64,000 bases of DNA from Georgenia soli (GTDB lineage Bacteria > Actinomycetota > Actinomycetes > Actinomycetales > Actinomycetaceae). The position numbers were made by a program, and so were the translations under genes. The notes under the pieces were generated by a model, which saw only the letters and a list, made by a program, of their open reading frames with translations, did not search any database and had not been told where the DNA came from. Of this stretch, positions 39,772 through 48,084 are shown one piece after another. Within the stretch, counting starts at the first letter, position 1; each line of letters starts with the position of its first letter. Location: contig NZ_PDJI01000004.1 of the NCBI RefSeq assembly GCF_002563695.1, positions 1,178,001 through 1,242,000 on the forward strand, read 5' to 3'.

Positions 39772-40218
39772 TCAGGGGCGCGGGACCACCAGCACCGGGA
39801 CGTCGGCGAACTCCAGCACCTCCCGTGCCACCGAGCCGATGTGGGTGCGGCCCGGCCCACCCGCGTCCGACCGGCCCAGGACCACAAGGTCGGCGTGCCA
39901 CCGGCGGGCCTCGGCCAGCACGAGGGCGGCCGGCTGCCCCGAGCCGCTGCCGGTCTCCGCCGTGATCCCCTCGTGCTCCGCCTGTGCCGCGACGTGCTGC
40001 AGCAGGGCGTCGACGGCGGCGCTGCGCCGGGCGGCGAGCGCCCCGTCACGACCCATCGCCCGCAGAGCGCTCGTCACCTCGCCGTTCCCGCCGACGTGGA
40101 CGAACCTCACGCCCCCACCGGTGCGGGCGGCGAGCGCGACGGCGAGCCGGGCGGCGGCCAGGGCGGCGGGCGAGTCGTCCACCGCCACCAGGATCCGGCC
40201 GAACACCTGACCGCTCAT
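39772..40218 (-). CDS. Universal stress protein (UspA family)
   Basis: 148-aa single Usp domain. Begins ILVAVDDSPAALAAARLAVAL and ends with the nucleotide-binding loop VVLGRSDAGGPGRTHIGSVAREVLEFADVPVLVV, so ATP binding is likely. ATG 40218 overlaps the stop of the V-ATPase D-subunit gene by four bases (ATGA), making it the last gene of that operon. The coupling suggests a link to energy status or ion stress, which is inference. Confidence 0.93.
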   Translation of the reverse strand: MSGQVFGRILVAVDDSPAALAAARLAVALAARTGGGVRFVHVGGNGEVTSALRAMGRDGALAARRSAAVDALLQHVAAQAEHEGITAETGSGSGQPAALVLAEARRWHADLVVLGRSDAGGPGRTHIGSVAREVLEFADVPVLVVPRP

Positions 40219-40886
40219 GACCGTCCGCTCCCCTCACCCGGGCCGGGCCGCTCCCCCGGGCTGGGCCGCTCCCCCGGGCCGTGCCCGGCGGCCCACCGCA
40301 GCCGGAGGCCCTCGGCCCGCTCGTCCTCCTCCAGGCGCAGCTCGGCCTCGGCCAAGGCCGCCTCGAGGCGTGGGATCCAGCGCTCCCGGACCGCACGCAT
40401 CCGCCGTCGCGTCGCCCGCTCCTGCTCCTCGGGCACCCGCACGGCGGCCTCGGCGGCGGCGTGGGCCACCGCGGCCTCGAGGGCCCGGCCGCACGCCGCG
40501 CGCGCCGCCGCGAGCGCCGCGGTGTCCAGCGGGGCCGCATCCTCGGCCGGCTCCGGGACGATGCAGCGCGCGCCGGCCGGGTAGCGCACGCCCATCGGCT
40601 CCTCCCAGGCGATCTCCACAGTGGCGGGCGAAGCGGCCGAGGCCCGCCCTAGGCCCTCCTCGCCCGCGAGCAGCGCGGCGCGCACCGACCACCGCTGCGC
40701 CTCGGCCGCCGTCCCCGCCCAGGCGTCGGCTGTCCGCTCGCGGAGAAGCATGTACCGCTCCCGCTCGCCCCTCACGATCCGCAGCTTGTGGTCGAGCAGC
40801 TCGGCGCCGTGCCTGGCGGTCGCGAGCCGGTGCTGGAGCCACAGGCGCCCGGCGCGGCCGGGCGGGGCGTGCAGTGCGCCGGGCAC
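40215..40886 (-). CDS. V/A-type ATPase subunit D (central stalk)
   Basis: 223 aa, long helical coiled coil. The N-terminal GRLWLQHRLATARHGAELLDHKLRIVRGE matches the D-subunit pattern of a Leu/Lys-rich rotor helix, with a long C-terminal helix (RRRMRAVRERWIPRLEAALAEAELRLEEDERAE). It forms the rotor axle connecting A3B3 to the membrane ring. A Gly/Pro/Glu tail is species-specific. It starts three bases after the B stop and overlaps the downstream Usp gene. Confidence 0.9.
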   Translation of the reverse strand: MPGALHAPPGRAGRLWLQHRLATARHGAELLDHKLRIVRGERERYMLLRERTADAWAGTAAEAQRWSVRAALLAGEEGLGRASAASPATVEIAWEEPMGVRYPAGARCIVPEPAEDAAPLDTAALAAARAACGRALEAAVAHAAAEAAVRVPEEQERATRRRMRAVRERWIPRLEAALAEAELRLEEDERAEGLRLRWAAGHGPGERPSPGERPGPGEGSGRS

Positions 40887-40889
40887 CGC

Positions 40890-45244: not shown

Positions 45245-46641
45245 GGCGAGCTCCGCGGGACGGGAGGGGTGTCGCCTCCAGGTTCCACGCCGTCGAGCGG
45301 GACGTGCCAGGGCCGGAAGGCCCGTCCCTCGCCGGTGAAGATCCGGGAGAAGAGCTCGTAGTACTCCAGGCGCAGCGCCTGCACCCCGGCGACGAGCGCC
45401 TCGAGCGTGAAGGTCACGGCGTTGCCGACGACGAACAGCACCACGGCGCCGACCACGCCGAGGGTCCCGGCACCGGCCAGCGTCGTCGTGCCGTCCCACA
45501 CGACCATCCCCAGGGCGGCGTGGGTGAGCCCGAAGGCGGCCAGCCGGGCGAAGGAGACGAGGTTCGTGCCGAGCCGCAGGACGGCGTCGAAGACCTCGAC
45601 GGCGGCCTGCGTCACGCCGGCCCCGCCGCCGCCGGACGCGGCCAGGAACCCGAGGAAGGCGAGCACCACCCCGGCGACCATGACGACGACGCCGACGCCG
45701 ACCAGTCGCCCCTGCTCGCCGACGGCGCCGAGGACGACGACGCCCAGCCCGGCGAGCAGCGCCGCGCCGGCGACGCCGGAGGCCGAGCTGAGCGCGAACG
45801 CCCAGCCGCCCTCCCGCCACCGGTTGACGGTGCCGATCCCCTGGGCGACGGCGAGCAGCACCGCGCCCACCCCGAGCGCCACGGCCAGGAGGGTGAGCGG
45901 CTCGTCCAGCGGGCTGACCCACAGCACGGGCAGGACCCCGGTGGGCCCGAAGAACTCGCCGTAGAGCACGCCGAACCCGACGGCGAACAGCCCGGCGCCG
46001 ACGACGAACGGCCACACCCGCCGCAGGCGTGCCAGGGCGGCCGGCCGGCCGGCGCGGATGAGGAGGCCGGCGAGGACGAGCAGGAGTCCGTGGCCGGCGT
46101 CGCCGAACATCATCCCGAACATGAGCATGTACGCGCCGGCGGCGACGACGGTGGGGTCGACGTCGGCGTAGGGCACGGTGCCGTAGGTCTCCACCAGCGG
46201 CGTGAAGGACCGCCGGGCGGTGCCGCCGTCGCGCAGGAGGGTGGGCGGGTCGATCCCGCGGGGCGGGGCCAGCGGGACGACGGCGCCGCCCACGGGGGCC
46301 AGTCGGCTTCCGAGCCCGGGCAGCTCGGTCGCGGGCGTCCAGCCGGCGAGCGCCGCGACCTCGCCGCGCAGGACGGCCGCCCGGGCGTAGGTGGTGAGCT
46401 CGTGCTCGCCGGCGAGGAGGTCGGAGCGGCCGGCCGCCTCCAGGGCGGCGGGGTCCGCGGGCTCGCGGGCGAGTCGTGCCGGGTGGCCCGCCGTGGTGGG
46501 GCGGGCCCGCTCCCCCGGCCGCTCGAGCTCGACGGTGCCGGCGTCGGCCACCTCCACCAGCATCGCGCGCAGGGCGGTGGCCGGGGCGACCAGCGCCACG
46601 CGCTGCATCCGCACCGGCTCGGCGAGGTCACGCCACGGCAT
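45241..46641 (-). CDS. V/A-type ATPase subunit I (membrane stator, a-subunit homologue)
   Basis: 466 aa, short for the family (usually about 650). A reduced soluble N-terminal domain (residues 1-165) is followed by seven or eight TM helices from [26 protein letters not shown], which is a family signature, to [24 protein letters not shown]. The helix containing [18 protein letters not shown] has the conserved Arg facing the proteolipid ring. ATG 46641 lies 14 bases inside the C-subunit gene. Confidence 0.93.
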
Positions 46642-47647
46642 CGAAGGCCTCCAACGCCCAGCCGGTGCCACCGCGCGCGGCGGTCTCCAGGGCGGCACGC
46701 ACCCGCCACAGGTCGGCGGCGAGCACCGCCAGCGCGCCGACGACGGGCCGCGGGCCGTGGCGGGAGTCGCGCAGGAGGGCGAAGCCGTCGTCCTCGAGCC
46801 GGTGCCACCACCTGACCTCGGCCCGCCACAGGTCGTCGACCTCGTCCACGCCCTCGAGCACCCAGCGCTCCTCCTGCGGCAGGCGCGCGCGAAGGCCGGG
46901 CACCGGGGCGCCGTCCGCGATCGCCTCCGCCGGGCCGGCGCCGAGCAGCTGCCGGGTGCGCGGCAGCAGCGACGGCGGCAGCGACCGCCCCTCGGCCAGC
47001 ACCTCCCGGGCGAGCACGAGGACGGCGCCCGTGCGGGCCCAGCCCGCGGCGTCGGGCGCGGCGGAGACGACGGCGTCCGCCCAGGCGATACGAAGGCCGA
47101 GGGCGAGCGCCCGTCGGGTGGCCGGTGCGCGGACCCGCCACGGCGAGGCGGCCAGCACCTCGGCGGCGCCTGCCAGCGTGGTGGTGCGGGCCGCCCGTTG
47201 CCCGGCGGTGTCGAGGGTGCCCAGGTCGTACGCCGGTGCGGCGGACGCCGACGCGGCGTCGGACGAGGCTGCGGCACCGGACGCCGCTCCGACCGGGCGG
47301 TCCGCAGCCCGGCTTGCGCCGGGGACGCCGGCGACCGCTGCGAGGTGGGCGTCGACGTTCGCCACCTCGAACCCCGCCATGAGCACGCGCACCGTCTCGG
47401 CGCCCTCCCGCGGCAGCCAGCCCGCCAGCACCCGGGCGTTCCACAGCAGGGCCGCACCGGCGGCGTGCTGAGCCTCGGCGAGGCTCTGGCCCGGCCGCAC
47501 GTCGTGGCCGTACGGCCCGCGCGCGAGCGTCCGGACCGCCGCGGCAAGGTTCGGGTGGCCGGCGAGCTCACGCGCGCCCGCCGCACCCAGCCGGCGGCGC
47601 GCCAGCGCCTTGGCGCGGACGGCACCGGCCACCCAGCCGGTGCTCAC
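46628..47647 (-). CDS. V/A-type ATPase subunit C (central stalk socket)
   Basis: 339 aa, mostly helical. GTG 47647 overlaps the upstream gene by four bases. Composition and position between the coiled-coil gene and I match NtpC/AtpC of the V/A family, with repeated Arg/Leu/Ala helices and a C-terminal EERWVLEGVDEVDDLWRAEVRWWHRLEDDGFALL block. An Ala/Ser low-complexity insertion sits near residues 130-150. Assignment is good by context, moderate by sequence. Confidence 0.8.
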   Translation of the reverse strand: MSTGWVAGAVRAKALARRRLGAAGARELAGHPNLAAAVRTLARGPYGHDVRPGQSLAEAQHAAGAALLWNARVLAGWLPREGAETVRVLMAGFEVANVDAHLAAVAGVPGASRAADRPVGAASGAAASSDAASASAAPAYDLGTLDTAGQRAARTTTLAGAAEVLAASPWRVRAPATRRALALGLRIAWADAVVSAAPDAAGWARTGAVLVLAREVLAEGRSLPPSLLPRTRQLLGAGPAEAIADGAPVPGLRARLPQEERWVLEGVDEVDDLWRAEVRWWHRLEDDGFALLRDSRHGPRPVVGALAVLAADLWRVRAALETAARGGTGWALEAFDAVA

Positions 47648-48084
47648 GGCCCCGCCTCGGCCACCAGCGCCCGGCGAGCCTCGGCGAGCGCGCGGGCCAC
47701 CATGTCGTCCATGCGGGCTGCGGCCCGGGTGCGGATCGCGGCGGCCTCCTCCTCGGCGGCCCGGAGCCGCTCCTCCCGCTCGCGCGCGGCCTCCCTGCTC
47801 ACCTGCAGCGCGGCGTCGGCACGCTCCCCCGCCGCGTCGCGGTGCGCGCGGGCGACGAGCGCACCGGCCTCGGCCGCGGCCTCGCGCCGTCGTCTGTCGG
47901 CGGCGTCCTGGGCCTCGTGACGGATCCGCGCCACCTCGTCCTGCGTCTCGGCCAGGAGCTGGAGCACCGGCTCGAGCTCGCTGGTCAGCTCCGCCACCCG
48001 GTCGGCCGGCACCCCGGCCGCGGCCGCGGCGCCCGGCGCACCGGCCGGGCGGAAGCGCCGCAGGAGGTCCTGGGTCCGCGGCAT
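47644..48084 (-). CDS. Coiled-coil stalk subunit (G/H-like) of the V/A-type ATPase
   Basis: 146 aa, almost entirely one helix rich in Ala, Glu and Arg (AEAGALVARAHRDAAGERADAALQVSREAAREREERLRAAEEEA). It is the first gene of the operon and overlaps C by four bases. Length and composition match the peripheral stalk G/H subunit that pairs with E. No catalytic motif is present. Confidence 0.75.
   Translation of the reverse strand: MPRTQDLLRRFRPAGAPGAAAAAGVPADRVAELTSELEPVLQLLAETQDEVARIRHEAQDAADRRRREAAAEAGALVARAHRDAAGERADAALQVSREAAREREERLRAAEEEAAAIRTRAAARMDDMVARALAEARRALVAEAGP

Follow-up and report, generated by a model that had tools for sequence, protein, structure and literature searches.

An additional V-type rotary ATPase operon in Georgenia soli and its actinomycete relatives, a candidate ATP-driven proton pump

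Why would an actinomycete that already possesses F-type ATP synthase genes carry a second rotary ATPase? The question is raised by a window of Georgenia soli DNA (the whole 64,000-nucleotide stretch analysed; assembly GCF_002563695.1, contig NZ_PDJI01000004.1, positions 1,178,001 to 1,242,000), in which ten co-directional minus-strand open reading frames (ORFs), running from 48084 to 39772, encode the subunits G-C-I-K-F-E-A-B-D of a V-type ATPase and a universal stress protein (Usp; gene usp). On balance, we consider it probable that this is a V-type ATPase of a distinct actinomycete lineage, additional to the F-type enzyme and transferred as an operon, which acts as an ATP-driven H+ pump when respiration fails. 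The A3B3 head would hydrolyse ATP, subunits D, F and C would rotate the K ring against subunit I, and the latter would most likely move H+ outward; the membrane would thus be kept energised at the expense of ATP once respiration stops in hypoxia or dormancy. Rotation driven by ATP hydrolysis is expected because the head and ring parts are all present, while the hypoxia-gene setting in relatives, together with the F-type genes alongside, suggests the role in respiratory arrest. The ion and the hypoxia role are inferences, and so is the outward direction, which the sequence does not reveal.

A V-type ATPase beside the F-type enzyme

The operon belongs to the V-type rotary ATPases: the signatures of subunits A and B, the ring carboxylate, subunit a/I, subunit D and a C/d subunit are all found. 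An earlier note on this DNA had placed nine V/A-ATPase genes and usp at 39772..48084, and its coordinates, strand and gene content are correct. Relatives were collected by an A-subunit search of one-genome-per-species records, which gave 219 loci; the best 80 were kept and, with the window, make up the 81 loci compared here (gene starts in the relatives come from a script and could be a few codons out).

Pfam profiles match A, B, D, K, I and Usp above cut-off and F, C and G below it, with no match for E. Subunit C is settled by its predicted fold. The AlphaFold2 model (predicted local distance difference test 92.9, predicted TM-score 0.89) has Thermus V-ATPase subunit C as its top Foldseek matches (8ywt_M, 1.3e-4; 1r5z_A, 2e-4), and all four matches below 0.001 are C/d chains of Thermus or yeast V-ATPases. 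The profile PF01992 at 0.001 matches 21 of 48 C subunits of the clade, the one in the window not among them. Assignments of F, E and G are tentative, being suggested by weak profile matches, operon position and conservation in relatives; a relative of G is the first gene in 59 of the 81 loci (window included), and several of the others lie on cut contigs.

Subunit I is a clade variant that lacks about 200 residues of the cytosolic arm, and no N-terminal domain of the typical size, about 300 residues divided into a proximal and a distal lobe, was found in it. It differs in this from V/A-ATPases with a full stator arm on subunit I, an arm that is typical of the V type but not defining for it. 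Arg366, presumably the essential arginine of subunit a/I, is invariant in 51 aligned sequences.

The ring subunit K carries the motif GLAEGIA[IV]YG in 78 of 78 proteins. An N-terminal extension is present in all 76 K proteins that are not cut short, with an AxA pattern in 75 of the 76, a permissive test in this alanine-rich stretch. Four relatives (loci L056, L037, L085 and L051) begin with a single helix or a short signal-like stretch in place of the two-helix leader, and these few cases favour a leader that is cleaved off over the alternative, a four-helix ring subunit.

The same subunit bears on the transported ion. In 77 of 78 proteins glutamine is absent from helix 1 of the K hairpin, and the glutamate is followed by Gly-Ile, which favours H+ over Na+; the best solved structural matches of K are likewise proton pumps. 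These features speak against a Na+ pump of the Enterococcus hirae kind, acting against salt or pH stress, which we regard as very improbable, even though subunit I finds its best solved match, by sequence as well as by VIA-align, in the E. hirae sodium enzyme. For an actinobacterium of a different class, too, a Na+ V-type ATPase has been put forward (PMC7325909).

Is the cluster still functional? All 81 A subunits of the clade, the window's among them, keep the Walker A, GERG[NA]E and STSRWAEA patterns, and 76 of 78 B subunits keep the arginine motif [ST]LSRL. The ratio of non-synonymous to synonymous substitution rates (dN/dS) between the window and Georgenia satyanarayanai is 0.18–0.45 in all ten genes. 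With the catalytic residues kept and all ten genes under purifying selection, a decaying remnant was rejected, and the operon probably encodes a complete, working proton-pumping rotary ATPase.

The earlier note called for a check of the genome for an F-type ATPase, and F-type genes are indeed present beside the V-type operon. Three further ATPase-domain matches in the genome are taken as F-type alpha, F-type beta and Rho, and by eye the F-type delta and gamma genes adjoin alpha. F-beta was found in 30 of 30 named operon-bearing genomes tested (30 out of 80). A V-type operon replacing the F-type enzyme was rejected on the presence of these genes.

Distribution and descent

The best 80 of the 219 loci all bear actinobacterial names, except for one metagenome-assembled genome labelled Proteobacteria; genera include Georgenia, Mycobacterium, Streptomyces, Nocardia, Nocardioides, Cellulomonas and others. 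Whole-genome searches, with the window's own genome counted, recover the operon in two of nine genomes of the genus, in six of 151 sampled for the family and in 15 of 394 for the class, where one match reaches only 51% identity. The roughly 40%-identity matches in other members of the genus are presumably flagellar export ATPases. In a sample of the phylum 93 of 396 genomes match, 91 of these at 40–54% identity and some with two copies. As a separate observation, many genomes of other Actinomycetota classes possess two distinct V-type A subunits, often about 45–50% and 40–43% identical to that of the window.

A quick phylogeny of 67 A subunits unites all 32 actinomycete-type rows in a single clade (SH-like approximate likelihood ratio test 100) with a long stem, set apart from rows of other Actinomycetota, Bacillota, Fusobacterium and Rubrobacter (archaeal rows are outside this tree). 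A recent import from Bacillota is unsupported, as the clade holds only actinomycete-type rows behind its long stem.

Trees of V-type (A plus B) and F-beta sequences from the same 30 genomes share only four of 27 splits (L072 was left out, its B gene not having been called; the cyanobacterial family shown for L013 in these trees stems from a name clash with Rhodococcus). Mycobacterium interjectum clusters with Georgenia in the V tree (support 97/96), and forcing it together with Mycolicibacterium costs 181 log units (approximately unbiased test, p = 7e-35), so that one Mycobacteriaceae clade is rejected; this constraint was picked after the first distance tables had been inspected. Amycolatopsis acididurans pairs with Nocardia higoensis in the V tree, at 88% identity. 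In Streptomyces and Embleya, four clade members are carried by replicons that measure 0.9 to 3.1 Mb and are filed as plasmids. In a sister genome of the window's (G003) synteny holds on both sides, with other genes replacing the V operon and the adjacent iron permease. The MFS-CBS gene, which encodes an MFS transporter with fused CBS domains and precedes the operon in the window, is found at 92% DNA identity in G003 and in a second sister genome (G002), both without the V-ATPase.

Patchy distribution, tree conflict, plasmid-filed replicons and a sister genome without the operon together argue for transfer among actinomycetes, which is well supported by these comparisons; the operon would have passed between them as one unit. 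An ancestral operon with many losses and no transfer would explain the patchiness too. It would fit the three Georgenia copies, which stay one clade in both V and F trees, as do the Streptomycetaceae, and a weak, above-chance correlation of V and F distances (0.19, reached by four of 999 permutations). However, given how few splits are shared, the placement of M. interjectum, the Amycolatopsis–Nocardia pair and the copies on large replicons, we judge this explanation unlikely. The coherence of Georgenia and of Streptomycetaceae in both trees points to short-range vertical descent. The earlier suggestion of an acquired operon thus holds for exchange within the actinomycetes.

On a 58-kb Pseudonocardia plasmid (L190:7561-14170) genes for subunits F, A and B precede that of a P-type ATPase, with an integrase gene nearby; membrane subunits are unannotated within the stretch shown.

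Stress genes, DevR/OsdR-like boxes and the proposed pump

In many of the relatives, a DevR/OsdR-type regulator seems to activate the operon along with usp, nitroreductase, CBS-domain and similar genes. A position weight matrix (PWM) was built solely from 26 published sites given in PMC5069765, and a score of at least 10 within 250 bp upstream of G was counted. This level is reached at 23 of 59 loci (the window included among the 59), compared with 146 of 4729 other stretches from these same loci (3%) and 23 of 1770 shuffles, and all 23 predicted sites lie at −77 to −138. The core motif is present at 15 of 32 Streptomycetaceae loci (2.5–3.5 expected) and 10 of 38 others (2.0–3.2 expected), G. 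satyanarayanai and M. interjectum among its carriers. In a hold-out of ten loci unused before, four score at least 10, three of these four being Streptomycetaceae (L200 and L205 had been dropped from twelve as duplicates of L026 and L085). An earlier scan with motif forms, made before the matrix of published sites, had given 9 of 58 loci against 0.9 by simple shuffling.

Neighbouring genes point the same way. Among 130 near neighbours of 36 loci, Pfam detects Usp 11 times (four of them operon-tail copies), CBS nine, BON five, Pyridox_ox_2 four, and zinc dehydrogenase and nitroreductase three each; these proteins were hand-picked from 323 in 40 loci, mostly the two nearest per side, with some large ones omitted. 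Usp, nitroreductase, pyridoxamine oxidase and zinc dehydrogenase families occur in the OsdR/DevR dormancy regulon in Table 1 of PMC5069765. In the 881 kb flanking 67 loci, 70 usp ORFs were counted against about 3.4 expected (roughly 20-fold), at least one of them in 51 loci. The expectation was derived from the 865 matches that Pfam gives across about 227 Mb in 30 of the genomes concerned, and the enrichment is a rough figure, as the profile came from operon-tail Usp proteins, tail copies were counted and the background was obtained with Pfam instead.

The window itself keeps the stress link only as the overlapping usp. How closely does this gene belong to the ATPase? Usp directly follows D in 18 of 73 loci and does not adjoin it in the other 55 (73 being the 81 loci minus four without a called D and four without downstream sequence, including L036, which has a Usp). 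The trait undergoes 12 changes on the tree, so Usp is a frequent companion of the operon and not a fixed part. In the window its overlap with the end of D makes co-translation likely, and usp is presumably co-transcribed with the V operon. Where Usp is called next to D, the 4-base overlap recurs in 13 of 15 loci (window included). This overlap is also what would favour Usp as a dedicated regulator or assembly factor of the ATPase. We find that role improbable in view of the 55 loci without Usp adjoining D, the number of changes and the enrichment of usp at many sites around the operon, not solely at its end. The stress-linked regulator proposed in the earlier note is thus upheld in its overlap with D and its recurrence behind that gene, but not as an obligatory element. 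The stress link seems better shown by the DevR/OsdR-like boxes and stress genes around the relatives than by usp, and compared with that first reading the finding is less striking for the window alone and more so for the clade.

The hypoxia setting can also be read in the opposite energetic direction. A second ATP synthase for times of low membrane energy, its V-type ring using more H+ per ATP than the F-type ring, would suit synthesis at a low gradient, and the catalytic residues are kept. The V/A enzymes of Thermus are synthases, with a V-type ring of 12 c subunits, a figure that is Thermus's own. We consider this possible but distinctly less probable than the pump, since F-beta is present in every operon-bearing genome tested and a patchy accessory operon suits a conditional pump at least equally well.

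Several points weigh against an ATP-driven H+ pump under dormancy control. The box counts are not independent, because 20 of the 23 box-bearing loci are Streptomyces, that is, related species, and 36 of the 59 loci fall below a score of 10. The 250 bp upstream of the window's own operon give a best PWM score of 0.0 and no core motif, and no core motif was found upstream of the Georgenia thermotolerans operon. The weak correlation of V and F distances indicates partly vertical descent. The direction of pumping is not something that sequence can show. The ion-ligand positions of K are assumed to correspond to the E. hirae sites, and the poor reversal of the actinobacterial F-type enzyme, which would leave room for a dedicated pump, is background from mycobacterial work.

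We also put forward, as a speculative extension of the pump reading, that a mobile, reduced V-ATPase has been wired into the DevR/OsdR programme as the dedicated H+ pump of non-growing cells, with the distal lobe of subunit I lost and maybe fewer peripheral stalks than in the V-ATPases of solved structure; as an anatomical hypothesis, the stator may have a single stalk. As a side observation, G. satyanarayanai has a membrane H+-pyrophosphatase gene, a second type of primary proton pump, closely upstream of its V operon (L006:2511-5243).

The link to the dormancy programme in relatives is the new, testable point of this analysis. Among the matches listed in a search of open-access literature (subscription papers lie outside it), no link between a V-ATPase and DevR/OsdR and no description of this clade was found. 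How aerobic actinomycetes energise their membranes in anoxic dormancy is an open question. If the link is true, an ATP-driven pump within the dormancy programme would be a direct answer for the carrier species, and one that fits a freely gained and lost operon. The shortened stator subunit I, in turn, offers a natural experiment on the number of stalks that a V-ATPase needs.

Gene layout and comparison with known systems

Feature coordinates are collected in Table 1. The tight run of 4-base overlaps described in the earlier note holds for seven of the nine junctions, but C and I overlap by 14 bases and B and D are separated by a 3-base gap. The strong upstream terminator of the same note is matched by a stable hairpin just past the MFS-CBS gene, but this has no T-tract and a pattern scan for terminators was negative. 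A DevR/OsdR-like palindrome precedes the MFS-CBS gene, and its counterparts in two sister genomes without the V-ATPase score 14.5 and 12.2; as a box serving the window's V operon it was discounted, since the hairpin intervenes. Downstream of usp a convergent ORF ends at 39754, and an FTR1 iron permease, an MFS transporter and a P-type ATPase are encoded beyond the operon (34620-39754). G. satyanarayanai has a relative of this P-type ATPase, 70% identical, at a distance of about 8.5 kb from its V operon.

Table 1. Features of the operon and its upstream side in window coordinates
Feature	Position	Strand	Basis
Subunit G/H-like peripheral-stalk coiled coil, 146 aa (amino acids), first gene; tentative	47644..48084	-	V-ATPase_G_2 E=0.028, below cut-off
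Subunit C (d / AC39), 339 aa	46628..47647	-	predicted fold
Subunit I (a), 466 aa, membrane stator, cytosolic domain shortened	45241..46641	-	PF01496, fold
Subunit K (c ring), 171 aa: leader of two helices, linker rich in Ala and Pro, then c hairpin with essential Glu	44729..45244	-	PF00137, residues 108-167
Subunit F, short, 76 aa; tentative	44502..44732	-	PF01990 E=0.0038, below cut-off
Subunit E-like peripheral stalk, 184 aa; tentative	43951..44505	-	NCBIfam subunit E 9.5e-5, below cut-off; no Pfam match
Catalytic subunit A, 566 aa	42254..43954	-	NF003220 615 bits, above cut-off
Non-catalytic subunit B, 455 aa	40890..42257	-	NF003235 587 bits, above cut-off
Central-stalk subunit D, 223 aa	40215..40886	-	PF01813 E=9e-19
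Universal stress protein, 148 aa, last gene, 4-base overlap with D	39772..40218	-	PF00582 E=1.7e-25
Leader region, likely promoter: TAGCCT -10-like element (by eye)	48085..48164	-	sequence
22-pair terminator-like hairpin between upstream gene and operon	48183..48230	-	-58.3 kcal/mol, z -5.6
Preceding gene, outside operon: MFS transporter fused to CBS domains	48253..50325	-	PF07690, PF00571
DevR/OsdR-like palindrome about 40 bp before the MFS-CBS start	50365..50380		PWM score 14.5

The V/A-ATPases of E. hirae, Clostridia and Thermus resemble the actinomycete enzyme in subunit set, catalytic motifs, the folds of I and C and the K hairpin. Their gene order, however, is I-K-E-C-F-A-B-D after a small first gene, whereas that of the clade is G-C-I-K-F-E-A-B-D. 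The clade medians are 468 aa for subunit I and 75 aa for subunit F, against 593–672 and 104–115 aa in the records compared; in addition, K of the clade carries a leader, and its A subunit falls in the separate long-stemmed clade. The more distant A subunits of other Actinomycetota classes from the phylum search lie, in the rows tested, outside the actinomycete-type clade.

That some actinobacteria have V-type ATPases is already in print (PMC7325909). The V-type enzyme of the Hakuba actinobacterium is described there as Na+-dependent, in a genome that has no F-type genes. A V-type ATPase on a Rubrobacter plasmid resembles the window in its proximity to usp and P-type ATPase genes, but unlike the clade it has canonical subunit lengths and a different gene order. 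Plasmid p1 of Streptomyces fungicidicus (NZ_CP023408) carries an operon of this clade with identical gene order, behind which lie genes for Usp, CBS-domain and P-type ATPase proteins; its usp does not overlap D as in the window but follows after a 126-base gap. In the public record of this plasmid (L188:7874-11962) the first gene, F and E are annotated merely as hypothetical, which makes the operon look incomplete.

The DevR/DosR regulon of Mycobacterium tuberculosis and the OsdR regulon of Streptomyces coelicolor are the closest regulatory parallels considered here. Table 1 of PMC5069765 lists no ATPase operon among their genes, and the window's operon has no box; the box sequence and the families of neighbouring genes given there match the loci of the relatives.

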